Assembly: GCF_900103975.1 (NCBI RefSeq) | Contig: NZ_FNIR01000005.1 | Span: 193,934-257,933, forward strand | Length of the DNA: 64,000 nucleotides | Origin: Klenkia soli | GTDB lineage: Bacteria; Actinomycetota; Actinomycetes; Mycobacteriales; Geodermatophilaceae | Reading direction: 5' to 3' | Shown: piece after piece, positions 34,565 to 60,973 of the stretch | How the letters are laid out: each line of letters opens with the position of its first letter | How positions within the stretch are numbered: position 1 is the first letter of the stretch | Position numbers and translations under genes: made by a program | The notes under the pieces: generated by a model | Databases searched by the model: none | What the model saw: only the letters and a program-made list of their open reading frames with translations | What the model was told of the DNA's origin: nothing

Positions 34565-34735
34565 CGCACACCCCCGTGTGACCGGCCGGGCGGTGAGCCC
34601 GGCACGTGCTCCCCATGCAGCCACACCGCACACCCCGCACGGCTCGCCGACCGCGCGCAGGTCCGCGCACGCCGACGCCGGACCGCGCAGAAGACCTGCT
34701 CAGCGCCGCGCAGTGGCGTAGGTCACCATGTCCCC

Positions 34736-35545: not shown

Positions 35546-35645
35546 ACCGGGTCAGCCACGCCGGATGTCCACCCATCGGGCCCTCGACTGCACTACCTTC
35601 CCGGGCGACGTCACCGGCCCCGGTGACCCACGGGGGACCCACCGC

Positions 35646-36464
35646 ATGACCGACACCCAGAAGCCCGGCACCCAGCAGCCCGGCACCCAGCAGCCCGGCA
35701 CCGCGCAGGACTCCGCGCCGTTCGTCCGGCAGATCACCTGGCTCGTCGACCACGCCGGCGGGAAGGACGCGCTGGTCCGGGCCACCGGGAAGAAGGTGAG
35801 CGCCCGCACCCTGGACAACTGGGTGCGCGGCGACTACCCGCGGGCCGCCGTCACCGGTGCGGTGCGCGAGCTCGACCGCTGGGCGCTGGCCCAGGGCTTC
35901 GGCTACCCGGAGGCGGCCGGGGCACCCCGGTTGATCGACGCCTGCGGTCCGGCAGCCGGTGCGCAGCCGGTGGACGAACCGCGCGTCGCGGAGACCGGGC
36001 CGACCCGGCGGCGGGCCCTGCTCGCGGCGAGCGCGGCCGCCCTGGTGCTGGCCACCGCGGTCGTCTCGGTGCTGGTGACCCTGGCCGTCGTGGGCCGGAC
36101 CCCCGGACCCGCCGCCACGGTGACCGTGGCCGCCCCCACCACGGGCCTCCCCCCGCTGCCGACCACCGGCGACGGGACGCTGTACACCGAGCAGACCGGG
36201 TCGCAGGGCTCCAACACCTTCGCCGATCCCCGCACCCTGGCCGACGGGAACGTCCCCGTCCCGGCCGCCACCGACGTCCAGGTGGTCTGCCGCTACTACG
36301 CGCCGTCGATCCCCAGCGTCGCCCCCGACGGCTTCTGGTACCTCCTCGACACCGAGGGCTGGGCGGGCCGCTGGGCGCCGGCCAACACCTTCTGGAACGG
36401 CGACGTGCCCGGGGTCTACCCCTACACGCACAACACCGACTTCGCGGTCCCCCTCTGCTCCTGA
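35646..36464 (+). CDS. HTH-like/TM/extracytoplasmic protein, paralogue 2
   Basis: 272 aa, clearly duplicated with the gene before it: the N-terminal blocks PFVRQITWLVDHAGGKDALV and LDRWALAQGFGYPEAAGAPR align almost residue for residue, as do NTFADPRTL and GWAGRWAPA in the outer domain. It adds an N-terminal tail built from the repeat PGTQQ. The membrane helix is near residue 130 (LLAASAAALVLATAVVSVLVTLAVV). Two Cys in the outer domain (VVCRYY and the C-terminal LCS) could form a disulphide; the first paralogue has equivalent Cys. The gap to paralogue 1 is 100 bases. Confidence 0.78.
   Translation: MTDTQKPGTQQPGTQQPGTAQDSAPFVRQITWLVDHAGGKDALVRATGKKVSARTLDNWVRGDYPRAAVTGAVRELDRWALAQGFGYPEAAGAPRLIDACGPAAGAQPVDEPRVAETGPTRRRALLAASAAALVLATAVVSVLVTLAVVGRTPGPAATVTVAAPTTGLPPLPTTGDGTLYTEQTGSQGSNTFADPRTLADGNVPVPAATDVQVVCRYYAPSIPSVAPDGFWYLLDTEGWAGRWAPANTFWNGDVPGVYPYTHNTDFAVPLCS
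35664..35708 (+). repeat. 15-bp tandem repeat inside paralogue 2
   Basis: The unit CCCGGCACCCAGCAG occurs exactly at 35664-35678 and 35679-35693, with a partial copy after that. It encodes PGTQQ and lies in the N-terminal tail, so copy number can change without shifting the frame. Confidence 0.8.
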
Positions 36465-36516: not shown

Positions 36517-37437
36517 GTGGAGCCCATGGTCCCGACGGTGGAAGGTCTCGTCCTCCGCCGGGCCGCGGCCGGCAACCTGCTCCCCCGCCCCGGGGCGGGG
36601 CACTCCCCGCAGCGCCTGCTCAGCACCCTGCTGGGCGAGTACTGGTCCGACACCGACGACGCGCTGCCGCTGGGCGCGCTGGTCGACCTGCTGCAGGAGT
36701 TCGGCATCTCCGAGACCAGCGCCCGGGCGACGGTCACCCGGCTGGCCAAGCGCGGGATGCTCGAGATGGAGCGGGTGGGCCGGCTGACCCGCTACCGGAT
36801 GACCGCCGACGGCCGTCAGGACGTCGGCGAGCAGGGCGGGGCCATCCGCGACTTCGCCGCCGTCCCCCGCGACTGGGACGGCCGGTGGACGGTGGCGGCG
36901 TTCAGCGTGCCCGAGGACCAACGGCAGCTGCGGCACCACCTCCGCAGCTACCTGCGCTGGCTGGGCTTCGCCAGCCTGTTCGACGGCCTCTGGGTGGCCC
37001 CGCGCGGCAGCACGGCCACCCTCGAGCAGGTCTTCCGCACCGTCGGGGTCGACCAGTTCGCGGTGTTCCGCACCTCCGACGACCCCTGCGGACGCGAACC
37101 GCTGACCGCCTGGGACCTCACCGGTGTCGAGACCGCCTACCGCACGTTCGTCACCGAGCACCGCCCCCTGCTGCACGGGGTGGCCGACAGCACCCCCGCG
37201 AGCGCGCTGGTCACCCGCACCCGGGTGTTCGAGGCCTGGCGCACCTTCCCCGCCCTGGATCCCGACCTGCCCCAGGCCTGGCTGCCGGAGGGATGGCCCC
37301 GCGCGGAGGCCCGGGAGGTGTTCGTCGGCCTGTACAACGGCCTGGCCACCCCGGCGACCGCGCGGTTCCGGCAGCTGGTCGCAGCGCACGACCCGGTGGC
37401 CGCCGGGCGGGCCAGCGAGCGGCGACTACCGGCCTGA
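36517..37437 (+). CDS. PaaX-family transcriptional repressor
   Basis: 306 aa. An N-terminal winged helix (PQRLLSTLLGEYWSDTDDALPLGALVDLL, then GISETSARATVTRLAKRGML and the wing MERVGRLTRYRMTADG) is followed by the PaaX-type central and C-terminal domains (DWDGRWTVAAFSVPEDQR, LRWLGFASLFDGLWVAP, and VTRTRVFEAWRTFPALDPDLP). Family members are repressors that sense an aryl- or acyl-CoA. It is convergent with the ten-gene CoA-related operon and its 3' end overlaps that operon by 12 bases, so control of that operon is plausible but unproven. Confidence 0.9.
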   Translation: MEPMVPTVEGLVLRRAAAGNLLPRPGAGHSPQRLLSTLLGEYWSDTDDALPLGALVDLLQEFGISETSARATVTRLAKRGMLEMERVGRLTRYRMTADGRQDVGEQGGAIRDFAAVPRDWDGRWTVAAFSVPEDQRQLRHHLRSYLRWLGFASLFDGLWVAPRGSTATLEQVFRTVGVDQFAVFRTSDDPCGREPLTAWDLTGVETAYRTFVTEHRPLLHGVADSTPASALVTRTRVFEAWRTFPALDPDLPQAWLPEGWPRAEAREVFVGLYNGLATPATARFRQLVAAHDPVAAGRASERRLPA

Positions 37438-38676
37438 TCCCGGCCGCACGCGGGTGTCCAGGAAACCGGTGATCGCCTCGGTCAGCGCCTCGGGGTCCTG
37501 CGCACGGGGGTCGGCGTTGTTGGCCCGCACCTCCAGCACCGGGATGCCGGCGGCCTCCAGCCCCCGGGTGGTGAACGAGCTGGCCGGGACGTCGTCGGCG
37601 ACCAGGTGCACGACGCCGTCGACCCCGTGCAGCCGGGCCTCCTTGACGTACCAGTCGGTCGACCACGGCGGGGTGTAGAGCTGGTCGGTGAACCCGGCGA
37701 ACCGGGCGGCCAGCCGCCGCACCGGGTCACCCCCGGCGCGCACGTACCCGTCGGCGGCGATGGCCAGGTACATGGACCAGACGAACACCGCACCGTGGCT
37801 GTCCTGGAACCGCCGGTAGAGGTCCATGTCGAACCACATGCCCCGGCCGATCCACATGAGCCGCACGCGCTCGTCGGGGCAGACCGCGACGCCGGAGTCG
37901 ACCAGCCCGGCGACCTCCTCGTACAGCCGGCGGGCGGCGTCGCGGCCCCACTCGGTTCCCCGGTGCCACTGCGGCACCATCACGGCGGGGATCGAGTCGG
38001 CCACCGCCACCGGGGTGGGCCGCGCGGCGGCGACCAGGTCGCGGGTGCGCCGGTTCCAGCCGGCCTGCTCGTCGACGAGGTCGAGCACGTGGGCCAGCCG
38101 GTCGCGGTCGAGCACCCGGCCGGTGCGCTGGGCGAGGAACTGCACGAGCTCCTCGATCTCGGCCACCATCAGGTCCAGCCGGGCCGGGCCGAACGCCTCC
38201 TCCCAGCGGTGCGGCACCAGCTCCCACCACCGGTCGGGCACCCGGGTGGCCGACGAGCGCTCGAAGGCGAAGAACTCGGTGTCCGGGTGCTCGCCCCACA
38301 GGTCGAACACCTTGCGCTGGGCGTCGCCGCTGGTCTCGGCCAGCACCACCGACGGGCGCGGCAGCCCACCCCACGGGGCGCCGTCGGCGGGCAGCTCCAT
38401 CGCGCCCAGGGCGATGGCGTCGTACTGCCGGCTGTCGTCGGGGTAGCCCTGCACCCGCAGCACGTCCAGGCTCTCGTCGGCCCGGCGCTTGGCCGACACG
38501 ATGCTGGCCCACCACTGGTTGACCACGTAGGGCAGGTCCAGGGCACGCAGCACCTCCTGGGGGGCGTCGGCGTTGACCAGCACCAGGGGTTCGCCGGCGG
38601 CCGCCCGGGCGCGCACCTGCTGGAACCACTCCTTCTGGTGCGCCGTGGCCGCGGTCGCGGAGGCCAGCCGGGTCAC
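37426..38676 (-). CDS. 2-hydroxyacyl-CoA dehydratase subunit-like protein lacking cluster cysteines (416 aa)
   Basis: The N-terminal part (EWFQQVRARAAAGEPLVLVNADAPQEVLRAL, then PYVVNQWWASIVSA) and the C-terminal part (GVVHLVADDVPASSFTTRGLEAAGIPVLEVRANNADPR) match the HgdB/BcrC-like fold of 2-hydroxyacyl-CoA dehydratases and benzoyl-CoA reductases. Those enzymes hold a [4Fe-4S] cluster with three Cys. Here only one Cys is present in the whole protein (VAVCPDERVRL), and the motif before the C-terminal strand has no Cys. GTG 38676 overlaps the preceding gene's stop. It is the last gene of the operon. A dehydratase role is therefore doubtful; acyl-CoA binding is possible. Confidence 0.72.
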   Translation of the reverse strand: MTRLASATAATAHQKEWFQQVRARAAAGEPLVLVNADAPQEVLRALDLPYVVNQWWASIVSAKRRADESLDVLRVQGYPDDSRQYDAIALGAMELPADGAPWGGLPRPSVVLAETSGDAQRKVFDLWGEHPDTEFFAFERSSATRVPDRWWELVPHRWEEAFGPARLDLMVAEIEELVQFLAQRTGRVLDRDRLAHVLDLVDEQAGWNRRTRDLVAAARPTPVAVADSIPAVMVPQWHRGTEWGRDAARRLYEEVAGLVDSGVAVCPDERVRLMWIGRGMWFDMDLYRRFQDSHGAVFVWSMYLAIAADGYVRAGGDPVRRLAARFAGFTDQLYTPPWSTDWYVKEARLHGVDGVVHLVADDVPASSFTTRGLEAAGIPVLEVRANNADPRAQDPEALTEAITGFLDTRVRPGSGR

Positions 38677-39809
38677 GCGGCGACCGCCGGGGCGGCCAGC
38701 GCGGCGAGCAGGTCGGCGGGCGCGGTGCGGTGCGGCTGACCGACCAGGGTCACCAGGGGCACCCCGCAGGCGGCCAGGGCCCGGCGCTGGGCGGGTACGT
38801 CCCAGCCGGGCGCCTCGTCGTGCGCGCGCACCAGGGACAGCACGACGTGGGCGCCGCAGCGCGCCGCCTCGGCCGTCGTCCAGGCCGCCCGGTCGGGCAC
38901 CGACGCGGTCGGGGACGCCGGGCCCCGCCGCTGCCGGGCCAGCGCGAGCGCGCCGGCCGTGGGCTCGGCGGGCACCTGCACGGTCAGCGCGAGGTCGCCC
39001 CGGTCGTGGTCCTCCCCCGCGACGTGCCAGCCGGCGTCCTCCAGCGCCGCGTAGTGCGCGTCGTGGTCCTGCACGCTGCCGGTGAGGAACACCCGCCGAC
39101 CGGCGGACAGGGCGGGCAGGTCGGCGGCCAGCAGGGCGTCGAGCAGCTCGACGGCCTCGGCCGCCGGCACCGTCGACACGACGCCGTGCACGTGCAGGGC
39201 CAGGCTGCCGGTCACCGTCGGCTCGGCGGCCCGGCGTCGCTGCTGCACCAGCAGCAGCCGCTCGCGCAGCGCGCGGGCCGGGCGCAGGGCGTCGGCGAGG
39301 GCGCCGGCGGGGGCGTCGGGGCCCAGCGGTGCGCGCCCGGTCCACCCGGTGAGGACGTCGGCCAGCCGCAGCACCTCGGCGGTGTCGTAGGCCGTGGTGG
39401 ACGCCCGGGGCAGGTGCAGCAGGTCCAGCAGGTGCACCGGCGGCAGGCCTCGCCAGGGGTCGAGCCGGCGCAGCTCGCGGAGGGCGTAGAACATCGCCAG
39501 CGACGACTGGCAGTCCCGCGACACCACCAGGCCGGCCAGCCCGGCCGCGGAACCGCCCAGCAGCCGGGTGAGCAGGGTCAGCGTCGGTGCGTCGACGGCC
39601 GCACCGAGCACGTGCCGTGCCTCGGCCGACGGCGGGCCGGGGTCGCCGGTCAGCCGCACCGGCACCGCCCCGGCGGCCTCGACCAGCTCGACCGGGACGT
39701 CGGCGCCCACCACGCCGACCACCGGGGTGCCGGCGGCCACGCGGTCACCGACGTCGTCCCCGCGGGTGCGGTAGCGCTGCGCCCACCAGGCCGGGTCGGC
39801 CGGGCCCAC
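38673..39809 (-). CDS. 2-hydroxyacyl-CoA dehydratase subunit-like protein (378 aa)
   Basis: Family elements: VVGVVGADVPVELVEAAGAVPVRLTG near residue 30, LAGLVVSRDCQSSLAMFYALREL, PPVHLLDLLHLPRAS, and a C-terminal segment VVLSLVRAHDEAPGWDVPAQRRALAACGVPLVTLVG. In active members the C-terminal segment has a Cys where HDEA stands here, so one cluster ligand seems lost. The protein has three Cys overall: SRDC, ARCG, AACG. GTG 39809 abuts the CoA-transferase stop. With the 416-aa partner it likely makes a heterodimer. No activator ATPase (HgdC/BadF type) is visible in the window. Confidence 0.75.
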   Translation of the reverse strand: MGPADPAWWAQRYRTRGDDVGDRVAAGTPVVGVVGADVPVELVEAAGAVPVRLTGDPGPPSAEARHVLGAAVDAPTLTLLTRLLGGSAAGLAGLVVSRDCQSSLAMFYALRELRRLDPWRGLPPVHLLDLLHLPRASTTAYDTAEVLRLADVLTGWTGRAPLGPDAPAGALADALRPARALRERLLLVQQRRRAAEPTVTGSLALHVHGVVSTVPAAEAVELLDALLAADLPALSAGRRVFLTGSVQDHDAHYAALEDAGWHVAGEDHDRGDLALTVQVPAEPTAGALALARQRRGPASPTASVPDRAAWTTAEAARCGAHVVLSLVRAHDEAPGWDVPAQRRALAACGVPLVTLVGQPHRTAPADLLAALAAPAVAA

Positions 39810-41048
39810 CTAGACCACCCCGGCGGCGAGCAGCTCGTCGATCCGGTCGGCCGGGTAGTGCAGCAGGTCGGCCAGCACCGGTCGCACGTGCTCGCCCAGC
39901 TGGGGGGCGGGCCGGTCGAGGGTGGTCGCCGCGCCGGACATGCGGATGGGCACCCCGGTGGCGCGCAGCTCGGGGAACAGCCCGTGCCGGGGGTCGACGA
40001 CCGGCACGACCTCGCCGCGGTCGGCGACGATGGCGTCGCGCACGGCCGCCGCCGGGTCGCGCACCTCGGCGGCCGGTGCGCCGTGCGCGGTCAGCGCCGG
40101 GAGCGCCTCGGCCAGGGTGCGCCGCTTGGCCCAGTCGGCGATGAGGGCGTGCAGCTCGGTGGCGTTGGCCACGCGGCCGTCGCGCTCGGCGAAGCGGGGG
40201 TCCTCGACCAGGTCCGGTCGCTCGATGGCGCGCAGCACGCCAGCGGCGAAGGCGTTCGTCGGCGCGCAGAGGGCGAACCAGCCGTCCTCGACCTCGAACA
40301 CCCCGAAGGGGGCCAGCCGGGGCACCGTGGCGCCGGTGCGCACCGGCAGGCCGATCTCCTCCAGCGCGTCGAAGGGTTCGCAGGCCACCAGCGACGTGAG
40401 CGCGCCGAGCATCGAGACGTCGACGTGCTGGCCGGGGCCGTCGCTGCCGCGCTGCAGCAGCGCGGACACCGTGCCGATCACCGCGTAGAGCGGGGCCACC
40501 AGGTCGCCGACCGGCAGGCCGAAGCGCACCGGCGGCTCCCCCGGCGTCCCGGCGGTCATCATCAGCCCGCTGAGCGCCTGCACGATGGTGTCCATCGCCT
40601 TGCCCGAACCGGGCCCGCCCTGGGCGCCGAATCCGCTGATCGAGGTGTAGACGATGCGCGGGTTGATGGCCCTCGCCCAGGCGTGGTCGATGCCCAGCCG
40701 GGTGGTCACCCCGGCGCTGAAGTTCTCCACGACGACGTCCGCGGCGCGCACCAGGTCGCCGAGCACCTCGCGGCCGCGCGGGTCCTTGAGGTCGAGGGTG
40801 ACGCTCTCCTTGCCCCGCCCGCGCACGAGCATCGACAGCGAGAGGTCCTCGGGGTCCTGCCGGCCGATGGTCAGGCCCTCGGCGCTCAGGTAGGGCGAGT
40901 TGTTGCGGGAGGAGTCCCCTCCGGTGGCCGGGTTCTCCACCTTGATCACGCGGGCGCCGAGGCCGGCCAGGAGCAGGGTGGCGTACGGGCCGGCCAGCGC
41001 GGTGGTCAGGTCGACCACCACGACGCCGTCCAGGGGGCGGGCGGTCAT
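39810..41048 (-). CDS. CaiB/BaiF-family CoA-transferase
   Basis: 412 aa class III CoA-transferase. The start GVVVVDLTTALAGPYATLLLAGLGARVIKVENP, the middle ESVTLDLKDPRGREVL, and the catalytic Asp153 in GSGKAMDTIVQALSGLM are characteristic. These enzymes move CoA between carboxylic acids through an aspartyl-CoA anhydride. ATG 41048 overlaps the CapA-like stop by four bases. It sits upstream of two dehydratase-like genes, so it probably makes the acyl-CoA they act on. Confidence 0.92.
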   Translation of the reverse strand: MTARPLDGVVVVDLTTALAGPYATLLLAGLGARVIKVENPATGGDSSRNNSPYLSAEGLTIGRQDPEDLSLSMLVRGRGKESVTLDLKDPRGREVLGDLVRAADVVVENFSAGVTTRLGIDHAWARAINPRIVYTSISGFGAQGGPGSGKAMDTIVQALSGLMMTAGTPGEPPVRFGLPVGDLVAPLYAVIGTVSALLQRGSDGPGQHVDVSMLGALTSLVACEPFDALEEIGLPVRTGATVPRLAPFGVFEVEDGWFALCAPTNAFAAGVLRAIERPDLVEDPRFAERDGRVANATELHALIADWAKRRTLAEALPALTAHGAPAAEVRDPAAAVRDAIVADRGEVVPVVDPRHGLFPELRATGVPIRMSGAATTLDRPAPQLGEHVRPVLADLLHYPADRIDELLAAGVV

Positions 41049-42190
41049 GCGGGGGTCCTCTCGTCGGCGGCGGTCACGAGGACGTCGTCCCCGGACCAGG
41101 TGAAACGGGTGTCGAAGCCGGCGCGGCGGCTGATGTCCTCGACGTAGGCGGCCACCTGCTCGGCACGCGCGCCGCGGGTCAGCGGCACCGGGCGGGCGTC
41201 GTCGTCGATCCAGGTGGGTCGGAACCCGGCGGTGACGGTCCCGTCGTCGGCGAACCGGCACACCGCGACGGCGGTGTTGCGGCTCTCGGGGTGGAAGGCG
41301 TAGGTGGGCATGGCCGGGTCGGGGCTGAACCCGAACATCTCCTTGCGCCGACGGCCCCAGGCCTCGACCTCGGCGGAGTTCTGCCCCGACGGCGTGAGGG
41401 CGTGGGTGACGGTGACGAAGTTGCCCAGGCCGTGGAACACCGGCCTGCCGCGGTGCACCTCGATGCCGCGCATGATGTGCGCGTGGTGGCCGAAGACGGC
41501 CGAGGCGCCGGCGTCGATCGCCGCGTGCGACACCTGCCGCTCGTAGTCGGCCACCAGCGCCGGGGTGTGCCCGATGCCCTTGTGCAGCGAGACCAGCACC
41601 AGGTCGGCGGTCCCCGCGGCGGCGGCGACGTCGTCCTGCATGCGGCGCAGGGTCTCGGGGGCGGCGAACGTGTAGACCGTCGGCGGGCCACCGGGGTTGG
41701 CGAACTCGAGGTCGTAGTGGGTGAGCACCTTGACGTAGGCGCAGCCGGCCTTGCCGCTGGTCGCCCACGACTCCTTGGGTCCCACGCAGTTGTAGCTGAG
41801 CACCGCGATCCGGCGCCCGGCCCGCTCGACCACCGCGGGCACCCGGGCCTCGGCCAGGGAGGCCCCGGTGCCGGTGACCACGAGGCCGGCGGCCCGGGCG
41901 TGCGCGATGGTGTCCAGCACGCCCTCGGTGCCCAGGTCGTACGCGTGGTTGCCGGCCGTCGTGGCCACCGCGAACCCGGCCCGGGCCACCGCGGCCAGCG
42001 CCGCGGGGTCGGCCGGGGGCGCCGGCACGTCGACGACGGCGGGCACCGTGGCCGTCGTGTGCGGCACCTCGACGTGGCCGATGGCCAGGTCGGCCGAGTG
42101 CAGGTACTCGCGGGCGGGGTCGAAGAACGAGTCGGGGTCGGGCTCGTCGAGCACCAGGTCGCCGACGGCCAGCACGGTCAGCTCGCTCAC
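41045..42190 (-). CDS. CapA-family (PgsA-like) metallophosphatase-fold protein
   Basis: 381 aa. Motifs are LTVLAVGDLVLDEPD at the N-terminus (in place of GD-x-M), FAVATTAGNHAYDLGTEGVLDTI with the conserved N-H-x-D, and AVFGHHAHIMRGIEV with paired His. This is the calcineurin-like fold of CapA/PgsA, usually tied to poly-gamma-glutamate capsule synthesis. Here there is no signal peptide or membrane anchor and no capB/capC nearby, so a cytoplasmic hydrolase role is more likely. GTG 42190 overlaps the hydrolase stop. Confidence 0.85.
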   Translation of the reverse strand: MSELTVLAVGDLVLDEPDPDSFFDPAREYLHSADLAIGHVEVPHTTATVPAVVDVPAPPADPAALAAVARAGFAVATTAGNHAYDLGTEGVLDTIAHARAAGLVVTGTGASLAEARVPAVVERAGRRIAVLSYNCVGPKESWATSGKAGCAYVKVLTHYDLEFANPGGPPTVYTFAAPETLRRMQDDVAAAAGTADLVLVSLHKGIGHTPALVADYERQVSHAAIDAGASAVFGHHAHIMRGIEVHRGRPVFHGLGNFVTVTHALTPSGQNSAEVEAWGRRRKEMFGFSPDPAMPTYAFHPESRNTAVAVCRFADDGTVTAGFRPTWIDDDARPVPLTRGARAEQVAAYVEDISRRAGFDTRFTWSGDDVLVTAADERTPA

Positions 42191-43026
42191 CGGGCGACCT
42201 CCAGCACCGGCAGCCCGGCCAGGAACTCGGTGATCGGGCCGACCAGCCGCTCGGGCCGCTCGTCGGCGACGAAGTGGCCCTCGTCCTCGAACAGCACGCC
42301 GACCGAGCCGCGCACGCTGGTCAGCGCCCGCAGGGTCGACTGCGGGGAGATGACGCCGTCGCGCATGCCGCCGATCACCAGCACCGGCAGGTCGATCCCG
42401 GCCAGCACGGCGCGCAGCGCGGTCTCGTCGGTGGCGTCGGGGTAGGGCATGCCCTGGTTGATCCGGGCCTCCTCGTCGTCCATGGCCAGGAACGCGGCGA
42501 CCTTCTCCGCCACGAACGCGTCACGCAGCGCGACCCGCTCGGTGCCCTCGACGGGGCCGCCGATGGTGCGCATGGCCTTCTCGATCACCGCCGGGTCGCG
42601 GCGGTTGGCCACGATCTCCCGGCGCCCGGCCGAGGAGGAGGTGTCGCCGTCGCGGTCGTGCGGGGTGCCGACGACGGAGACCAGCGCGCGCAGCCGGTCG
42701 GGGTGCCGGCGGGCCAGGTGCCAGCCGATGCCCGCGCCGTGCGAGACGCCGGTGTAGACGAACCGGTCGACGCCCAGGGCGTCGGCGACCGCGACGACGT
42801 CGTCGGCCCACTGGTCCAGCCAGCCCGGGGCCGGGGGCTCCGGCGACCGCGACGAGCGACCGAACCCGCGGGCCTGCACGGTCACGACGTGGGCGCCGGT
42901 GGGGTGCTGCGCCAGGATCGCCGGGTAGCGCGAGAAGCCCATGGCGGAGGACAGCACGTGCAGGTCGCCGGTGCCGTGCTCCTCGACCCACACGTGCGCG
43001 TCACCCGCGAGCGGGATGGTGGTCAT
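42187..43026 (-). CDS. Alpha/beta hydrolase
   Basis: 279 aa. Nucleophile elbow GVSHGAG near residue 95, oxyanion region after VLSSAMGFSRYPAIL, acid residue in VIGGMRDGVISP and His in DEGHFVADERPERL. The family covers esterases, lactonases and C-C hydrolases. ATG 43026 overlaps the preceding stop by four bases. No signal peptide, so it acts in the cytoplasm after import. The substrate is presumably the imported compound. Confidence 0.9.
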   Translation of the reverse strand: MTTIPLAGDAHVWVEEHGTGDLHVLSSAMGFSRYPAILAQHPTGAHVVTVQARGFGRSSRSPEPPAPGWLDQWADDVVAVADALGVDRFVYTGVSHGAGIGWHLARRHPDRLRALVSVVGTPHDRDGDTSSSAGRREIVANRRDPAVIEKAMRTIGGPVEGTERVALRDAFVAEKVAAFLAMDDEEARINQGMPYPDATDETALRAVLAGIDLPVLVIGGMRDGVISPQSTLRALTSVRGSVGVLFEDEGHFVADERPERLVGPITEFLAGLPVLEVAR

Positions 43027-44366
43027 GGTCGTCCTCCGGGGTTCTCGGGGTCGGGGAGCTCGGGCACGTCCTCGGGCAGCAGCAGGCGCTGCTCCACGAG
43101 GGCCCGGGTGGCGTCGGTGAACCGCTGCACCCGGTCGGGCGCGGGGTCCAGGGGGGTCTGCACGCCGACGAGGTCGGCCACGACCTGGGCGTCGAGGTGC
43201 GGGGGCGCGAACGGCGAGGGCACGCAGCCGCCGGGTGCCGGGGTGGCGTAGGGCCAGTAGGACGCCAGCGGCGCCTCCACCCAGGGGGTGCGCACACCGC
43301 CGAGCACGTTGCCGACGGCGTCGCGGGCCAGTGCCCGGGCGCCGTCCGGGACCCGCCGGTCGCTCCCCTCGGCGAAGGCGAACCGGTCGGCCCGCGGCAT
43401 GGGGACGCCGTCGGCGACCCAGGCGTCGAGCGCGGCGACCACCGCGCGGGCGACCAGGTCCAGCCGGGTGCGCGAGCGCTGCTCGAGCACCTCGTTGCTC
43501 CCGGTCGGCAGCCCCTTCGCCCGGTACTGCGCGGCGTTGACCAGCACCTCCGAGGGGCCGGTGCCGTCGTGCGCGGTGCCGGCGACCTGGTAGAGCCGGT
43601 AGCGGTCCCCGGGGGCGTCGGAGTCCGGGCGCAGCACCGGGGCGTGGGTGGCCGACTCGGTCTCGCTGAGCACCTCGACGACCGGCACGTCGTGCCCGCC
43701 CACGGTGCGCCGCGGGTCGTCGGGGGCCGGCACCGGCTGCCCCGGCGGGGGTGGGTAGCCGGCCGGCCCCGCGCCGCCGGAGGAGATGCCGAGGACGTAG
43801 CCGTCCAGCACCGGGGCGCCGTCGGGCAGCCGCACGGCCTCGTGGAACCCCTCGCCGAGCAGCACCCGCACGAACGACCCGGTCATCGACCAGCCCGACA
43901 GGTGCGCCCGCGCCACCGGCTGGCCGGCGAGCAGGTCCAGCTCGCCGGTCCGCACCGCCCGCACGACGGCGGTGAGCACCTCCTGGCCGGCGACGTCGGC
44001 GGGCAGGTCGAGGTCGCCGTAGCGCGCGGGGTCGAACTGCTCGCGCATCGAGGCCGCGGTGACCCGCGCAGTGGTGACGCCCAGCCACGCACCGCCGGTG
44101 CGCAGCATCCACGGGTGCAGCACGCGCCAGGTGGCCGCGGTGTCGAACTCGGGGTGCAGCGCCTCGACCTGCAGCACCCCGCTGGCCCGGGCCGGGTCGG
44201 CCGGTCGGCGGACCAGCACCCGGGTGGTCCACCGGTCGCCGGTCACGAGGAACTCCTGCTCGACGTAGCCGTGCGCAGCCAGGTCGACGCCGCCGGGCAG
44301 CCCGGGGACCGCGGCGGCCCCCAGCGGCCGGGACACCTCGGTGACCGGCAGCTCGCGGGCGATCAC
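43023..44366 (-). CDS. Alpha/beta hydrolase-domain protein (PF20091-like)
   Basis: 447 aa of the large Abhydrolase_10-type family common in actinobacteria and proteobacteria. Segments are YVEQEFLVTGDRWTTRVLVRRP, VLQVEALHPEFDTAATWRVL, the nucleophile elbow HLSGWSMTGSFV near residue 150, and a His-containing YQVAGTAHDGTG. The family is of largely unknown substrate, often found with esterase or xenobiotic catabolism genes. GTG 44366 overlaps the ATPase stop by four bases. Confidence 0.83.
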   Translation of the reverse strand: MIARELPVTEVSRPLGAAAVPGLPGGVDLAAHGYVEQEFLVTGDRWTTRVLVRRPADPARASGVLQVEALHPEFDTAATWRVLHPWMLRTGGAWLGVTTARVTAASMREQFDPARYGDLDLPADVAGQEVLTAVVRAVRTGELDLLAGQPVARAHLSGWSMTGSFVRVLLGEGFHEAVRLPDGAPVLDGYVLGISSGGAGPAGYPPPPGQPVPAPDDPRRTVGGHDVPVVEVLSETESATHAPVLRPDSDAPGDRYRLYQVAGTAHDGTGPSEVLVNAAQYRAKGLPTGSNEVLEQRSRTRLDLVARAVVAALDAWVADGVPMPRADRFAFAEGSDRRVPDGARALARDAVGNVLGGVRTPWVEAPLASYWPYATPAPGGCVPSPFAPPHLDAQVVADLVGVQTPLDPAPDRVQRFTDATRALVEQRLLLPEDVPELPDPENPGGRP

Positions 44367-45388
44367 GCGACCACCGCCGGCGGCAGCGTGGCCACGGCGT
44401 CCTCGGTGCGGTGGCAGGTGACCTGCGTCCCGGACGGCGAGGTGCGCAGGGCCGGCCGCTGCTCGTGGCACACGTCGGTGGCCAGCAGGCAGCGGTGGGT
44501 GAAGGGGCAGGACTCCCCCAGCGGAGCCGGGGCGCTGCGCACCGCGGCGGCGCGGGCGGCCCGGGCCTCGCGGCGGGCCCGCTGCCGGTCGGGGTCGGCG
44601 ACCGGGGCGGCGGCCAGCAGGGCCTGGGTGTACGGGTGCGCCGGGGCGCCCTGCACGGCCACCGCTGCGCCGGACTCCATGACCCGGCCGCGGTAGAGCA
44701 CCAGCACCTGGGAGGCCATGTGCTCGACCACGCCGAGGTCGTGGGAGATGAACAGGTAGGCCAGCCCCAGGTCACGCTGCAGCTCGGTGAGCAGGTTGAG
44801 CACCTGCGCCTGCACCGAGAGGTCCAGCGCGCTGACCACCTCGTCGCAGACCACCAGCCGCGGCGCCACGACCAGGGCGCGGGCGATGGCGATGCGCTGG
44901 CGCTGCCCGCCGGAGAACTGCGCGGGGTAGCGGGTCGCGGCGTCGGCGGGCAGCCCGACCCGGGCCAGGATGTCGGCCACCCGGGCCCGCACGCCGTCGG
45001 CGCCGGGGCGCCGGCCGTCGCGGTCGCCGAGGGCCAGCAGCGGCTCGGCCACCGACCAACCCACCGTCCGGGTCGGGTTCAGCGAGCTGTTCGGGTCCTG
45101 GAACACGTACTGCACGTCGCGCAGGAACCCGCGGTCGCGGCGGCCGGCCGGGTCCTGCACGACGCCGTCCAGCCGCACCTCGCCGGCGGCGACGGGCGCC
45201 AGCCCCACCAGCGCCTTGGCCAGGGTGCTCTTGCCCGAGCCCGACTCGCCGACCAGGCCGAGGGTGGCGCCGGCCTCGACGCGGAAGCCGACGTCGTCGA
45301 CCGCCCGGCGGGTGCCGCGCCGGCCCCACCGGTAGTCCACCGACACCCCGTCGAGCTCGACCAACGGCGCGGCCCCGGTCGCCCTCAT
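44363..45388 (-). CDS. Oligopeptide/dipeptide-type ABC transporter ATP-binding protein (DppF-like)
   Basis: 341 aa. Walker A GESGSGKST, Q-loop QYVFQDPNSSLNP, signature QFSGGQRQRIAIARAL, Walker B LVVCDEVVSALD, switch His ISHDLGVVEH. The C-terminal oligopeptide-type extension has HPYTQALLAAAPV and a Cys cluster (CPFTHRC, VCHEQRP, VTCHR) typical of DppD/DppF. It pairs with the ATPase half of the next upstream gene. ATG 45388 overlaps that gene's stop. Confidence 0.95.
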   Translation of the reverse strand: MRATGAAPLVELDGVSVDYRWGRRGTRRAVDDVGFRVEAGATLGLVGESGSGKSTLAKALVGLAPVAAGEVRLDGVVQDPAGRRDRGFLRDVQYVFQDPNSSLNPTRTVGWSVAEPLLALGDRDGRRPGADGVRARVADILARVGLPADAATRYPAQFSGGQRQRIAIARALVVAPRLVVCDEVVSALDLSVQAQVLNLLTELQRDLGLAYLFISHDLGVVEHMASQVLVLYRGRVMESGAAVAVQGAPAHPYTQALLAAAPVADPDRQRARREARAARAAAVRSAPAPLGESCPFTHRCLLATDVCHEQRPALRTSPSGTQVTCHRTEDAVATLPPAVVA

Positions 45389-47328
45389 CGCGACCGCTCC
45401 AGGGTCAGCCCGACCGGCTGCCCGGCGGGGACCAGCGGGTGGATGCAGCGGGCCACGCGGCTGCCGGCCAGCTCGACCATCGGGATGCCCTCCTGGGTGC
45501 AGTCGTCCTGGGCCCGCGGGCAGCGGGCGGCGAAGTGGCAGCCGGTGGGCCAGGCATCCGGCGGCGGCACCGTGCCGGGCACGGTGCGCAGGGTGCCGTC
45601 GGGGGCGGGCTGGTCGGGGCTGCAGTCGAGCAGGGCCCGGGTGTAGGGGTGACCCGGCCCGGCGAAGACGTCGGCGGCGTCGGCGCGCTCGACCACCTCG
45701 CCGGCGTAGAGCACCACCACCCGCTCGCAGGCGTCGGCCACCACGCCCCAGTCGTGGGTGACCAGCAGGATCGCCATGCCGGTCTCGGCCTGCAGCGCAC
45801 GCAGCAGGTCGAGCACCTCGGCCTGCACGGTCACGTCCAGGGCCGTGGTGGGCTCGTCGGCCACCAGCAGCCGGGGCCGGCCGGCCAGGGCCATCGCGAT
45901 CGCGACGCGCTGGGCCATGCCGCCGGAGATCTCGTGCGGGTACCGCCTGGCCACCTCGGCCGGGTCGATCACCTGCACCTGCTCGAGCAGCTCGACCACC
46001 CGGACCCGCGCGGCGCGGCGGCCGACCCGGTCGTGCACCCGGACCAGCTCGCCGAGCTGGGCCCCGATCCGCGAGGTCGGGTCCAGGGCGCGCAGCGGGT
46101 CCTGCGCGACGAGGGCGATCTGGCTGCCCCGCACACCTCGCCAGCCCCGGCCGCGCAGGCCGGTCAGGTCGGTGCCCCGCCACCAGGCCGAGCCGGCCAC
46201 GACGGCGCCGTTGCGGGGCAGCAGGCCGAGCACGGCCTTGGCCACGACGCTCTTGCCGCTGCCGGACTCCCCCACCAGGCCGACGGTCTCGCCGGCCCGG
46301 ACGTCGAGGTCGACGTCGCGGACCACGGTGACCTCGCCGGCCGCGGTGGCGAAGGCGACCTCCAGCCCGCGCACGGCGAGCAGGACGTCGGGGTCGCCGG
46401 GGTCGGCGGCGGGCACCCGTCCGCGGCGCCGCACGCTGCGCCCGCCGGAGGCCGACGACCGGTCGGCGGTGGTGTCGCGGACGACGTCGCCGAGCACGCC
46501 AAGGGCCAGCACGGTGATCGCGATGACCCCGCCGGTGGGCACCATCAGCCAGGGGTAGCTCTGCACGACCGAGGCGGCCTCGCCGACCATGCCGCCCCAG
46601 GTGGGTTCCGGCGGCGGGGCGCCCAGCCCGAGGAACGACAGGCCGGTCTGGACGCCGAGGGCGATGGTCGCGAACAGCGTCGTCTGCACGATGACGACCC
46701 CGCGCACCCGCGAGAGCACGTGCCGCACGGCGACCTGCCGGCGGGACAGGCCCATCAGCCGGCCGGCGGTGACGTGCAGCTCCTGGCTCGCCGCCAGCGC
46801 CGCGCCGCGCACGATGCGCACCAGCCCGGCCGAGCCGAGCAGGCCGAACACGGCCATGCCGATGAGCAGGTCGTTGCCGAACAGGGTCAGGACGCTGAGC
46901 AGGATGACGATGGTCGGCACGGCCATGACCAGGTCGACGACCCGGGTGATGACCTGGTCGACCCGGCCGCCCAGATGGCCGGCGGCGAGGCCGAGAGGCA
47001 ACGCGACCACGGTGCGCACGAGCACGGCGACCAGCACCGCGACCAGCGAGGACGCCCCGCCCTGCAGCAGCCGGCTGAGGACGTCGCGCCCGAGCAGGTC
47101 GGTGCCCAGCCAGTGCGCACCCGACGGCGTCTGCCGGGCCGCGGCGAGGTCCTGCGCCAGCGGGTCGTACGGGGTGACGAACGCGCCGACGAGGCAGGCC
47201 AGCACGACGACGAGCAGGACGGCGCCGGCGGTGCGGCCGCGCCAGGTGGCCAGCACCCCGCGCAGCAGCGACCCGCGGGCCGCGGTGGCCGGTGCGGTGG
47301 CGGCGGTGGCCGCGACGGTGGCGCTCAC
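45385..47328 (-). CDS. Fused permease-ATPase of peptide-type ABC transporter (DppC-DppD)
   Basis: 647 aa with two parts. Residues 1-300 are a DppC-type permease: first helix AGAVLLVVVLACLVGAFV, external HWLGTDLLGRDVLSRLLQG, then five further helices and the EAA-type loop. Residues 310-647 are a DppD-type ATPase: Walker A GESGSGKSV, signature EISGGMAQRVAIAMAL, Walker B LLVADEPTTALD, and Cys-containing C-terminus (GCHFAARCPRAQDDC). There is no stop or frameshift between them. The combination is a true single reading frame from GTG 47328. Confidence 0.93.
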   Translation of the reverse strand: MSATVAATAATAPATAARGSLLRGVLATWRGRTAGAVLLVVVLACLVGAFVTPYDPLAQDLAAARQTPSGAHWLGTDLLGRDVLSRLLQGGASSLVAVLVAVLVRTVVALPLGLAAGHLGGRVDQVITRVVDLVMAVPTIVILLSVLTLFGNDLLIGMAVFGLLGSAGLVRIVRGAALAASQELHVTAGRLMGLSRRQVAVRHVLSRVRGVVIVQTTLFATIALGVQTGLSFLGLGAPPPEPTWGGMVGEAASVVQSYPWLMVPTGGVIAITVLALGVLGDVVRDTTADRSSASGGRSVRRRGRVPAADPGDPDVLLAVRGLEVAFATAAGEVTVVRDVDLDVRAGETVGLVGESGSGKSVVAKAVLGLLPRNGAVVAGSAWWRGTDLTGLRGRGWRGVRGSQIALVAQDPLRALDPTSRIGAQLGELVRVHDRVGRRAARVRVVELLEQVQVIDPAEVARRYPHEISGGMAQRVAIAMALAGRPRLLVADEPTTALDVTVQAEVLDLLRALQAETGMAILLVTHDWGVVADACERVVVLYAGEVVERADAADVFAGPGHPYTRALLDCSPDQPAPDGTLRTVPGTVPPPDAWPTGCHFAARCPRAQDDCTQEGIPMVELAGSRVARCIHPLVPAGQPVGLTLERSR

Positions 47329-48266
47329 GCCGTGCGCACCTTCGGGTCGAGCAGCCCGTAGGCCACGTCCACGAGCAGGTTGACCAGGACGACGACGAGG
47401 GTGAAGTAGACCCCGATGCCGAGGATCACCGACACGTCGTGGTCGACGGTGGCCTGGGTGGCCCGGCTGCCCAGGCCCGGGAGCACGAACACGTTCTCCA
47501 CGAACACCGTGGCGTCCAGGCTGCCGACGAACACCACCCCGATGGCCGAGACCACCGGGATCGAGGCGTTGCGCAGCACGTGGCCGAGCACGAGCCGGGT
47601 CTCGGGCAGGCCGTTGGCCCGCAGCACCGCGACGTGGTCGCTCTCCAGCACGGTGAGCGCGGCGTCGCGGGTCTGCTTGGCGATGACCGCCACCCCGAGC
47701 AGGCCGAGGGAGACCACCGGCAGCACCAGGGAGGAGGCCCAGCCGCCCAGCGACTGGTCGGGCGAGACGTAGCCGGTGGCCGGGAACCACCGCAGCTTGA
47801 CCGCGAACACCGACACCAGCACCAGCGCGACCCAGAAGCTGGGCAGCGCGATGCCGGCCAGGGACACCACGTCGAGCACCCGGGCGGTGATGCCGCCGCG
47901 CAGCGCGCCGACCACGCCGACCGCCACCCCGACCACCGAGCAGACCACCACCGTGGTCAGCACCAGGGCGAGGGTGACGGCCAGCCGGCTGTTCAGCGCG
48001 GTGGTCACCGGCTCCCCGGTGAACACCGAGGTGCCCAGGTCGCCGTGCGCCAGCCCGCCCAGCCAGCTCAGGTACTGCTCGTACCAGGGCCGGTCCAGGC
48101 CGAGCTCGGTGCGCAGGGCGGCGACGGCGTCGGGGGTGGCCGACTCGCCCAGGATGGTGCGGGCCGGGTCACCGGGCACCAGCGAGGCGAGCAGGAAGAC
48201 CACCAGCGAGACGCCCAGCACCAGCGGCACCGCCCACAGCAGGCGCCGCAGCACGATCCTCAGCAC
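47325..48266 (-). CDS. Peptide-type ABC transporter permease (DppB-like)
   Basis: 313 aa. N-terminus MLRIVLRRLLWAVPLVLGVSLVVFLLASLVPGDPAR is diagnostic of the DppB/OppB family, followed by a periplasmic loop (GLDRPWYEQYLSWLGGLAHGDLGTS) and five more helices, with the EAA loop RDAALTVLESDHVAVLRANGL. It is the first membrane component after the solute-binding lipoprotein, 31 bases downstream of it. GTG 48266. Confidence 0.95.
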   Translation of the reverse strand: MLRIVLRRLLWAVPLVLGVSLVVFLLASLVPGDPARTILGESATPDAVAALRTELGLDRPWYEQYLSWLGGLAHGDLGTSVFTGEPVTTALNSRLAVTLALVLTTVVVCSVVGVAVGVVGALRGGITARVLDVVSLAGIALPSFWVALVLVSVFAVKLRWFPATGYVSPDQSLGGWASSLVLPVVSLGLLGVAVIAKQTRDAALTVLESDHVAVLRANGLPETRLVLGHVLRNASIPVVSAIGVVFVGSLDATVFVENVFVLPGLGSRATQATVDHDVSVILGIGVYFTLVVVLVNLLVDVAYGLLDPKVRTA

Positions 48267-48297
48267 GGCGTCCTCCCGCGCTGCGGTGCCGCCGGGC

Positions 48298-49890
48298 TCA
48301 CGAGGCCGGCCGCCAGGCCAGGTCGGCCTCGGGGGCGACCGGCATCGGGTTGGGGTTCTGCACCGACGCGGTGACCCCGGTGATGTCCTCGGCGACGTAG
48401 TAGATGTTCTGCGTCGAGATCACCGGCACGACCCAGGCCAGCTGCTCCAGCCGTTCGTTGGCCTGCTCGTAGAGGTCGGTGCGCTGCTGACCGGTGGCGG
48501 CGAAGGCCTGGCCGAGCAGGTCCTGCACCTGCGGGTCGGTGCTGTCGAAGGGGTTGAAGACCGTCCCCGGCGCCAGGATCTGGTTGGTCACCTGCGCCAT
48601 GTCCGCCCCGGCGGAGGGCCACATGAGCGCCTCGTACCGGTCGGAGGTGCCGGCCTGGATGAACGCCGGGACGCCGGTGGACTCCACCTGGAGGTCGACG
48701 GTGATGCCGATCTCGCCGAGCGCGCTGGCCACCGCCTGCGAGATGGCGGTGTTGGGGTCGAGGACGGGCTGGGTCAGCAGGGTCATCGAGAACCCGTCGG
48801 CGTAGCCGGCCTCGGCCATCAGCTGCTTGGCCTCGTCCAGGTCGAAGTCGTAGCCGGCCGCGTCGTCGTCCACGTAGCCGTCGAGGTCCGGGAGGATCAC
48901 CTGCGTGCTGGGCGCGAAGGTGTCCGGCCCGAGGGCGCCGGCGATCGAGTCGCGGTCCAGCGCGTAGCCCATGGCCCGCCGCACGCGCTCGTCGGCGAGG
49001 GCCGGGTTGATCGTGCCGGCGCGGTCGGCCAGCACGAGCGACCAGTTGAAGAACGGCGCGGTGACCACGCCGAGGCCGGCGTCCTGGGCCAGCGACAGCG
49101 TGCTCGTGTCGCCCTCGGCGACGTCGAGCTGGCCGGTCTGCGCGGCCGACAGCACCGCGTTCGGGTCACCGATGACCCGGACGACGACGGTGTCGTACTG
49201 CTGGGCGTCGGGGTTCCAGTAGCCGTCGTTGCGCTGGTAGGTGTACCGGTCGCCGGTCACCGAGGAGCCGGCGTCGTAGGTGTACTGCCCGGTGCCCTGC
49301 GAGGCGTTCAGCAGCGAGTCGGGGTCGGCCAGGCCGGCCGGGCCGATGACCACGCCGAGCCCGAAGTACTGGGTCATCGTCGAGGCGGCGTCGGGGTTGG
49401 GCCGCCCGTAGGTGACGCGCACGGTCGACTCGTCGGTCGCCTCGACCGACTGGACGTCGCCCACCTGGCCGGCCAGCGAGCCACCGGCCTGGAGGAAGTA
49501 CTCCATCGAGGCGACGACGGCGTCGGCGTCCATGGGGCTGCCGTCGGAGAAGGTGACGTCGTCGCGCAGCTGCAGCTCGAAGACGGTGTTGCCCTCGCCC
49601 ACGTAGTCCCACGAGGTGGCCAGGTCGGGCACCAGGTCGCCGTCGCCGGAGAGGTAGATGAGCGGGTCGTAGGCCAGCATCGTGAAGACCGAGGACCCGC
49701 CGTTGCCGCCCAGGGCGGGGTTCAGGCTGATCGGGGCGCCCGGGAACTGCAGCTGCAGGGTGCTCGCGTCGCCCCCTGCGCCACCTCCCCCGGAGGACTG
49801 CGACGTGCAGGCGGTGAGCGTGGCCACGAGCGCCAGGGCGGCGACGGCCACCCAGCGGCGTCGCGAGGGACGGAGGGTGGGGCGGGGCAT
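48298..49890 (-). CDS. Solute-binding lipoprotein of peptide-type ABC transporter (SBP_bac_5)
   Basis: 530 aa. Signal MPRPTLRPSRRRWVAVAALALVATLTAC ends in lipobox LTAC with Cys28. The mature protein has the SBP family 5 layout (PAISLNPALGG-like start, DVTFSDGSPMDADAVVASMEYF, and VRRAMGYALDRDSIAG). Start ATG 49890 was preferred over ATG 49905 because AGGAG lies seven bases before it. Although the family is named for peptides, many members bind sugars, opines or other small molecules. It is the first gene of the ten-gene operon. Confidence 0.94.
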   Translation of the reverse strand: MPRPTLRPSRRRWVAVAALALVATLTACTSQSSGGGGAGGDASTLQLQFPGAPISLNPALGGNGGSSVFTMLAYDPLIYLSGDGDLVPDLATSWDYVGEGNTVFELQLRDDVTFSDGSPMDADAVVASMEYFLQAGGSLAGQVGDVQSVEATDESTVRVTYGRPNPDAASTMTQYFGLGVVIGPAGLADPDSLLNASQGTGQYTYDAGSSVTGDRYTYQRNDGYWNPDAQQYDTVVVRVIGDPNAVLSAAQTGQLDVAEGDTSTLSLAQDAGLGVVTAPFFNWSLVLADRAGTINPALADERVRRAMGYALDRDSIAGALGPDTFAPSTQVILPDLDGYVDDDAAGYDFDLDEAKQLMAEAGYADGFSMTLLTQPVLDPNTAISQAVASALGEIGITVDLQVESTGVPAFIQAGTSDRYEALMWPSAGADMAQVTNQILAPGTVFNPFDSTDPQVQDLLGQAFAATGQQRTDLYEQANERLEQLAWVVPVISTQNIYYVAEDITGVTASVQNPNPMPVAPEADLAWRPAS

Positions 49891-49984: not shown

Positions 49985-50024
49985 CATGACACTTGGCTCA
50001 GCGATCGACAGGCAGAGTGTCATG
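49985..50024. promoter_or_regulatory. Nine-base inverted repeat upstream of the ten-gene operon
   Basis: CATGACACT (49985-49993) and AGTGTCATG (50016-50024) are exact complements separated by 22 bases. Their centres are 31 bases apart, about three turns of DNA, so they lie on the same face. The region is the only sizeable gap before the operon and is less GC-rich than its surroundings. It is a good operator candidate. Confidence 0.5.
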
Positions 50025-50065
50025 CATTGGTGTGAGCCACGTCAAGGAGGTGGCCCGCGCCACGC

Positions 50066-57136: not shown

Positions 57137-57137
57137 C

Positions 57138-58991: not shown

Positions 58992-59067
58992 GCCACCTCC
59001 AGGTGTCGTGTGCTTCTCGCCGGGGCAGCCACCGCGGGCCGGCAGATGTTCCTATCGGCGCTGCGGT

Positions 59068-60852: not shown

Positions 60853-60973
60853 GAGCGACTCCCCTCGCCCCGGCGCACCGGGGGTCGTCGAAGCACCCAC
60901 CCTGCCCGCTCCGTGTTGCCGCGGCATGTCGCGGATCTGGCGTGTCCGGCGGCGGTGGCCCGGGCGGCGCCGT

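Follow-up and report, generated by a model that had tools for sequence, protein, structure and literature searches.

Klenkia soli carries, within the 64-kb stretch of its genome that we analysed (the window; NZ_FNIR01000005.1, a contig labelled C20), ten minus-strand genes at 37426-49890. The last two encode HgdA and HgdB, proteins with the predicted fold of benzoyl-CoA reductases and 2-hydroxyacyl-CoA dehydratases. Enzymes of these two kinds are oxygen-sensitive iron-sulphur enzymes. HgdA and HgdB have lost the set of cysteines that would hold the cluster. The explanation we favour, which we put just short of an even chance, is that the ten genes are one regulated unit of two modules for the aerobic catabolism of a conjugate of a hydroxycinnamate-type or other aryl-C3 acid, with an HgdAB that works free of the cluster.

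HgdA (38673-39809, minus strand) and HgdB (37426-38676, minus strand) both match PF06050 (HGD-D), with 67.5 and 115.8 bits against a cut-off of 28.4. HgdA falls on the BzdN/HadC side and HgdB on the BzdO/HadB side. Their AlphaFold2 models have pLDDT values of 94.5 and 87.9, respectively. In Foldseek searches the HgdA model is closest to 8s02_B (BzdN; TM 0.85 by query), with 3o3m_D/B next, and the HgdB model is closest to 8s02_C (BzdO; TM 0.83 by query), with 3o3m_C/A close. The best sequence matches are BzdN and MbdO; the sequence profile A3 included two canonical rows, which inflated its scores. Judged by these models, the two proteins share the 2-hydroxyacyl-CoA dehydratase/benzoyl-CoA reductase fold.

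We take three cysteines in each subunit to be the ligands of the cluster. Their positions were mapped via the canonical HgdA/HgdB pairs of two loci (L111 and L112). In the window these positions read D73, C100 and D331 in HgdA and R83, D118 and V363 in HgdB. Relatives were compared in alignment rows of unfused proteins (window and L106-L108 included, short HgdA rows of L029 and L088 excluded). In HgdA (n=78) positions 73 and 331 are D in all 78 rows, and position 100 is C in 56, S in 21 and R in one. In HgdB (n=83) position 83 is E in 53 rows, R in 16, L in eight, V in two, D in two, and Q and Y in one each. D118 is found in 83/83 rows. Position 363 is never C, and the adjacent D362 is again present in 83/83. 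Hence a ligand cysteine is retained in 0/83 HgdB rows, and each HgdA row retains at most one of three. Fourteen HgdB orthologues have no invariant cysteine among them; cysteines do occur elsewhere in the HgdA and HgdB proteins. The HgdB residues E41, Q54, W55, W56, Y85, D118, Q236-R239, S301 and Y303 are identical throughout an alignment of 83 rows that includes three alphaproteobacterial ones. Conservation is much stronger in HgdB than in HgdA.

An activator was also looked for. The window genome encodes two PF06050 proteins, which are HgdA and HgdB themselves. It has no PF01869 protein (BcrAD_BadFG, the ASKHA-type activator) above the cut-off, the best match reaching 22.1 against 31.5 bits. 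A phmmer search with the activator of L112, run against the proteins called in the window and in the 80 loci described below, returned nothing at E 1e-3. The loss of the ligand cysteines, together with a genome devoid of an above-cut-off activator, argues that HgdAB are not ordinary radical dehydratases.

Two further arrangements of the pair occur among the relatives. Five genomes (L101-L105), of which three belong to the window's genus, encode HgdA and HgdB as a single fused protein of 766-847 aa, and for four of the five both PF06050 matches lie within one frame. All five fused proteins keep D331 and have lost D73, C100 and D118. The loci L111 (genome G087) and L112 (G075), from the same order, carry canonical cysteine-bearing pairs. 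A BcrAD_BadFG gene is adjacent to these pairs (202.1 bits in L112), and relatives of short-chain dehydrogenase/reductase (SDR) and FadD genes are near.

The whole set of ten genes reads as a compact operon. Every frame is open, and the genes are joined by seven four-base overlaps, one zero gap (CaiB-HgdA) and one 31-base gap (SBP-DppB). Transcription would start at SBP (48298-49890, minus strand, like all ten), a family 5 solute-binding lipoprotein of the DppA/OppA type (PF00496, 209.5 bits). By eye, LTAC, which is lipobox-like, lies close to its N-terminus. A DppB-type permease follows (47325-48266; PF00528 and PF19300). Next comes a DppC-DppD fusion of permease and ATPase with 647 aa (45385-47328; PF00528 at residues 109-283, PF00005 at 337-495 and PF08352 at 546-610). 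The last importer gene encodes a DppF-type ATPase (44363-45388; PF00005 and PF08352, oligo_HPY). By Pfam, the Dpp/Opp importer set is complete: SBP_bac_5, two permeases and two ATPases. Downstream lie two alpha/beta hydrolases, Abh10 (43023-44366; PF20091, Abhydrolase_10, 271.8 bits, cut-off 23) and AbhB (42187-43026; PF00561, Abhydrolase_1, 66.7 bits), the latter with a nucleophile-like G-V-S-H-G motif, seen by eye.

CapA (41045-42190) is a PGA_cap metallophosphatase-type protein (PF09587, 185.8 bits). Its residues D11, E41, N81, H82, D85, H203, H236 and H238 are invariant in 77 rows and presumably form the metal site. The solved structures nearest to it by sequence are 8gq9 and relatives. 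We rejected identity with the MslH lasso-peptide epimerase, for which NF038314 scores 123.9 bits against an equivalog cut-off of 700. CaiB (39810-41048) is a family III CoA-transferase (CoA_transf_3; PF02515, 362.3 bits) with D182, which we take to be the catalytic Asp, invariant in 81/81 alignment rows. Its top NCBIfam scores are to dicarboxylate CoA-transferases (succinate-glutarate and succinyl-CoA:mesaconate), all far under the cut-offs. No NCBIfam model listed for the ten proteins attains its cut-off (for two proteins the list holds the best 25 models), so neither ligand nor substrate can be read from the family names. The original prediction had proposed this ten-gene layout with its junction pattern. 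The open frames and coordinates confirm it, and Pfam supports the family proposed for each gene, including the DppC-D fusion and the PF20091-like hydrolase.

To what extent do these genes belong together? A scan of contigs gave 247 stretches encoding relatives, and all locus counts refer to the best 80 of them, a choice biased to close relatives. Locus genes come from our own, unvalidated codon-score caller, and family labels are single-linkage BLAST clusters of which some members were scanned with Pfam. CaiB, HgdA and HgdB are adjacent on one strand in 79/80 loci; the remaining one is L021, a contig of 3.7 kb from a sister species. CapA directly precedes CaiB in 68/80. The importer is a different matter. 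It is of the polar-amino-acid type (PAAT) in 69/80 loci, an assignment checked with Pfam and NCBIfam on L046 alone. A PhnU2/SBP_bac_6-like set is found at some position within the locus in 6/80 and a Dpp-type importer in 3/80 (L058, L073 and L076, assigned by hand). None is seen in L084, and the L021 contig shows none. Flanking genes also include u453 (e.g. L030:13109-14485), a secreted-looking hydrolase family with weak Pfam matches that occurs in the flanks of 38 loci. A constant set of ten genes is thus ruled out: importer and hydrolases are exchangeable among loci.

On a tree of HgdB the Dpp label requires three changes. The tree is the result of a quick search with 56 rows, in which the PAAT rows were thinned to every second. 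Because long branches meet in it (fusion rows with TRAP rows, TRAP being tripartite ATP-independent periplasmic transporters), we took only this count of changes from it. From this we estimate that the Dpp-hydrolase block was probably added to the core on some three occasions, an argument that both belong to one pathway. The HgdB family itself is patchily distributed. Among genomes drawn across the class its profile matches 8/394, six of them strongly (own genome counted); among those drawn from the order 14/249 match strongly and three weakly, and within the genus 5/9 match.

The complete unit is conserved in a sister species (G229). Its genome has all ten genes in the same order, 79-96% identical and split over two contigs (L170 and L172), as well as the PaaX gene described below. 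The ends of L170 and L172 are consistent with a contig break inside HgdA. The HgdB of this species is 94% identical to that of the window; the contig with its HgdB also appears among the loci as L021 (a Klenkia). Two more distant loci, L107 and L108, have nine of the ten genes in order, CapA being absent and SBP truncated where the fetched stretch begins. Relatives of Abh10 hold the same position in L170, L107 and L108, and also in a separate Dpp block (L171). Close Abh10 relatives (at least 56% identity over the matched span) occur in four other genomes (G229, G125, G026 and G012) of the 249 drawn from the order. Relatives of AbhB stand immediately before CapA in L058, L073 and L076. In G125 the Dpp-Abh10-AbhB block and a PaaX gene are on contig C62, and HgdB is on C45.

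The original prediction also expected the genes to occur together in related genomes. This expectation is borne out for CaiB-HgdA-HgdB; it fails for the Dpp-hydrolase block, which is exchangeable, replaced by PAAT importers in most loci and split from HgdB between the G125 contigs. Import, hydrolysis and CoA loading, as proposed, agree with the family matches, and the sister species keeps the gene order. What lacks support is the late CoA-thioester step in the known HgdB-family manner, with the ligand cysteines gone and no activator above the cut-off in the genome.

Relatives of the core also occur outside the actinobacteria. A tblastn search of a plasmid collection found eight records with HgdB relatives, on plasmids of Novosphingobium, Croceicoccus and Rhizobium; seven align over the greater part of the query with 35-39% identity. 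Three annotated plasmids of Novosphingobium and Croceicoccus encode, on one strand, a CocE hydrolase, CapA, TRAP permeases, an HgdA-like protein, a long CoA-transferase and HgdB. The remainder on the same strand comprises a TRAP binding protein, a u308/PETase-like protein and a further CoA-transferase. In two of the three a TonB receptor gene follows the CocE gene. Three hydrolase families known from the flanks of the actinobacterial core are met again on these plasmids (CocE 3/3, u308 3/3 and u453 1/3). In HgdB of the three Alphaproteobacteria two ligand positions have a cysteine on or beside them, depending on the alignment; HgdA has none at its three. On a Novosphingobium megaplasmid, the gene between those for the HgdA-like protein and HgdB (L173:11884-13968) encodes a protein of 694 aa that contains two stretches of CoA-transferase III type. 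Long CoA-transferase genes are likewise present in L174 and L176.

The surroundings of the core suggest a link to hydroxycinnamates. The flanks of the 80 loci contain a CouO-like amidohydrolase in 22 cases, SDR in 32, FadD in 17 and MaoC in 13. Two of the 22 CouO-like proteins were scanned (L022 and L054), and both are Amidohydro_2. Ech (p-hydroxycinnamoyl-CoA hydratase/lyase) exceeds the NCBIfam equivalog cut-off in 4/80 loci (L040, L044, L051 and L053). CouO-like or Ech genes lie in the flanks of 26/80. A 4-hydroxybenzoate 3-monooxygenase is found in L053, L076 and L102, above the subfamily and under the equivalog cut-off. In L076 the core is followed by a MarR gene and then by the 4-hydroxybenzoate 3-monooxygenase gene (pobA), which opens a pca-type row; L102 has pca relatives too. 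The L076 MarR gene overlaps the HgdB end by four bases; among solved structures its closest relative is HcaR (6.6e-17), and L058 and L073 contain related genes. The MarR protein of L046 has no CouR match in PDB at E 1e-10, its sole match being Rv2887. In Croceicoccus, an annotated p-hydroxycinnamoyl-CoA hydratase/lyase, a CoA ligase and an aldehyde dehydrogenase adjoin the core relatives.

The association extends to whole genomes. In the set of 249 genomes from the order, 14/14 core-bearing ones have a close CouO-like protein (E < 1e-100), compared to 56/235 of the others (Fisher p 7e-9). Within the family the numbers are 8/8 and 14/31 (p 0.005). Both tests ignore shared descent, and the three weak HgdB matches are counted as core-lacking. 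The CouO-like gene lies 7-20 kb from HgdB on the same contig in 6/14 genomes (G113, G078, G186, G176, G071 and G120). One of these, G078, is of the same genus and has a cou-like cluster at most a few kb away from the core. The window genome has such a cluster on contig C15: MarR, SDR, Amidohydro_2, AMP-binding ligase, a further gene and MaoC. According to PMC4737184, CouO of Rhodococcus jostii RHA1 is a member of the amidohydrolase superfamily that acts last in the side-chain pathway, and CouR, a MarR protein, binds p-coumaroyl-CoA. For piperic acid, PMC12753220 describes a comparable route with four enzymes.

In the aryl-C3 explanation the unit would consist of a Dpp-type importer with two alpha/beta hydrolases as one module and the widespread CapA-CaiB-HgdA-HgdB core as the other. 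The importer would bring in an ester or amide conjugate of a hydroxycinnamate-type or other aryl-C3 acid. Inside the cell Abh10 and AbhB would cleave the conjugate, CapA would ready or hydrolyse a part of it, and CaiB would put CoA on the released acid by CoA transfer. An HgdAB heterodimer would then convert the thioester without a [4Fe-4S] cluster and without an ATP-driven activator. Without these, the chemistry would be polar (non-radical), with aspartates replacing the cysteines at the site. The product would enter the hydroxycinnamoyl-CoA side-chain pathway, and a cou-like route, with its genes on C15, would complete the side chain. Aryl-CoA would be sensed by PaaX or a regulator like it. 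We infer the heterodimer, the substrate class, the order of the steps and the polar mechanism.

A more specific version is conceivable, although we consider it improbable. HgdAB may be an oxygen-tolerant enzyme whose [4Fe-4S] site is now a carboxylate site, possibly with a mononuclear metal. Such an enzyme would turn aryl-lactyl-CoA or a similar aryl-C3 thioester into hydroxycinnamoyl-CoA without radicals, ATP or activator, and CapA would prepare the alpha-carbon of an acyl-oxy or acyl-amino acid. If this were true, both halves of rosmarinate-type ester conjugates would converge on one pathway. The related FldA and FldBC convert aryl-lactates to cinnamoyl-CoA, a reaction that would suit the neighbouring genes. 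Because it is not known to proceed without the radical cofactor, we kept it out of the main explanation.

Several observations weigh against the aryl-C3 explanation. Neither the operon nor the fourteen genes scanned around it include a recognisable hydroxycinnamate gene, and the cou-like cluster is on another contig (C15) than the operon (C20). The operon is not itself a cou-type unit: ligase, hydratase, dehydrogenase and amidohydrolase genes are absent from it. Neither CouO-like nor Ech genes occur in the flanks of 54/80 loci, and a close Ech is present in 1/14 core-bearing genomes (G138, 85%), other listed matches reaching at most 39%. The CouO-like protein is common in genomes without the core as well, and the Fisher tests take no account of shared descent. 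PF01869 is above the cut-off in 7/13 other core-bearing genomes (G078, G120, G118, G125, G026, G138 and G012) and not in the other 6/13; the family also includes other kinases. Polar removal of an alpha-hydroxyl from aryl-lactyl-CoA is chemically hard. Finally, importers of the Dpp and PAAT types suggest peptide-like or amino-acid-like substrates.

The last point leads to the alternative that we take most seriously, even though we think it unlikely: the operon may serve a non-aromatic amino-acid-like or peptide-like compound, such as an N-acyl amino acid or a lactam, and hydroxycinnamate genes may be near because catabolic genes cluster in soil actinobacteria. The Dpp-type importer here and the PAAT importer in most loci fit such a substrate, as do the dicarboxylate CoA-transferases that CaiB scores best against (far under cut-offs) and the 54 loci whose flanks lack CouO-like and Ech genes. 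However, the links to Ech, Cou-like, Pob/Pca and HcaR-like genes appear in separate lineages and in another phylum, and the CouO-like association holds at the level of genomes. Alternatively, the set could detoxify or export a toxic natural product rather than feed the cell, given that major facilitator superfamily efflux-type genes lie 3' of HgdB in many relatives (two families, 17 loci each). Yet the operon genes are for import, not export, and the pca and cou-like links indicate carbon use, so we regard this as very improbable.

The other alternatives concern HgdAB itself. The pair could be non-catalytic, binding or channelling acyl-CoA or acting as sensor or scaffold for CaiB. The lost cofactor ligands and the far weaker conservation of HgdA would agree with this. 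HgdB, in contrast, is strongly conserved, with many polar and aromatic residues identical in Alphaproteobacteria, and CaiB, HgdA and HgdB stay together in 79/80 loci; we judge a non-catalytic role to be quite unlikely. At the other extreme, HgdAB could be a classical radical 2-hydroxyacyl-CoA dehydratase or benzoyl-CoA reductase after all. PF06050 is above its cut-off, the fold is the same, and a CoA-transferase gene adjoins both subunit genes in a had/fld-like manner. Nevertheless, the ligand cysteines are lost, and the activator is missing both from the genome (no BcrAD_BadFG above cut-off) and from the phmmer results for window and loci. The canonical pairs of G075 and G087 retain their cysteines and have the activator alongside. 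We therefore ruled the classical enzyme out on the ligand loss and the missing above-cut-off activator, and leave it barely any probability.

A gene missing from the original prediction may provide the regulation. It encodes a PaaX-family transcription regulator (36517-37437, plus strand; PF07848, PF20803 and PF08223, all above cut-off), is convergent with the operon and overlaps the end of the HgdB gene by 12 bases. Homologues are found on the sister contig L172 (86%) and directly 3' of HgdB in L107 and L108 (44-45%). We infer that this PaaX gene regulates the operon.

A candidate operator, CATGACACT-N22-AGTGTCATG, lies at 49985-50024. Its perfect 9-bp arms are identical in the sister species, and the repeat sits inside a block upstream of SBP that is kept between the two Klenkia species. 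The motif ATGACAC-N20-28-GTGTCAT has a single site in the genome of 4,758,105 bases, and the backward control gives zero. The exact TGACAC-N18-30-GTGTCA is found in the sister only and nowhere else among 188 other fetched sequences. Within the conserved block, a candidate -35 element, TTGACG (50040-50045, minus strand), precedes the TGACAC of the first operator arm by 17 bases; the -10 match of this candidate promoter is weak by eye. The SBP start, an ATG at 49890, and the GGAG before it are kept in the sister species. A conserved inverted repeat with a single site genome-wide fits one regulated promoter, and the operon, judged by its sequence, would be one transcript.

Inverted repeats are also found upstream of other loci. 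Repeats of 8 bp with a spacing of 14-30 occur in 14/72 upstream stretches, compared to 6.8 expected from mononucleotide shuffling. Six loci of Streptomyces and Prauserella (L033, L034, L046, L050, L065 and L068) have a common long-spaced palindrome between PaaX and SBP, with arms like TCGCACGA about 20 apart. It is a candidate PaaX-type operator, and its sequence is unlike the window's repeat.

The neighbouring genes in the window complete the picture. The next gene upstream (50066-51238, same strand, 175 bases from the SBP start) encodes a nucleotidyltransferase with a GlmU-like tail. Before the PaaX gene, two plus-strand genes (34139-35545 and 35565-36464) have no Pfam match at E 1e-5; the sister species has a relative of each (61% and 76%, respectively). 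Farther away, at 55649-60927 on the minus strand, genes for circularly permuted ATP-grasp, S9 peptidase and asparagine-synthase-type proteins stand in a row and may form a unit for a small-molecule amide.

In searches of the open-licence part of PubMed Central we recognised no description of this gene set and found no paper that combines '2-hydroxyacyl-CoA dehydratase' with 'CapA family protein'. The branch described here is present in many actinobacteria and some alphaproteobacteria. It has kept the fold, the protein pair and the CoA-transferase partner and dropped the cluster ligands, and would show how such an enzyme can be put to new use. This calls for caution with annotation: membership of the '2-hydroxyacyl-CoA dehydratase family' need not mean such chemistry. 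The operon also offers a concrete candidate pathway for plant aromatic conjugates.

Among known systems, the importer resembles Dpp/Opp, of which the window has the full set; it differs in the C-D fusion and attains no NCBIfam equivalog. CapA is nearest by sequence to the MslH-type epimerase (8gq9), with metal-ligand-like residues kept, and stays far from the equivalog score. The cou system of R. jostii RHA1 is similar to the SDR, amidohydrolase, ligase, MaoC and MarR families found in the flanks. It is not known to include CapA, CaiB or HgdAB, and in the window's genome the cou-like cluster is on a separate contig from the operon. HgdAB has its closest matches in the class I benzoyl-CoA reductases BzdNO and MbdNO (by structure HgdA with BzdN and HgdB with BzdO; by sequence BzdN and MbdO), from which it differs by the missing ligand-cysteine set and the missing above-cut-off activator. 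With HadBC and FldBC (and HadA/FldA) the window shares two subunits of the PF06050 fold, the structural match to 3o3m and the adjacent family III CoA-transferase; had and fld clusters, too, have the CoA-transferase gene beside the subunit genes. Compared to these systems the window lacks the ligand cysteines and an above-cut-off activator, and its operon adds an importer, hydrolases and CapA.

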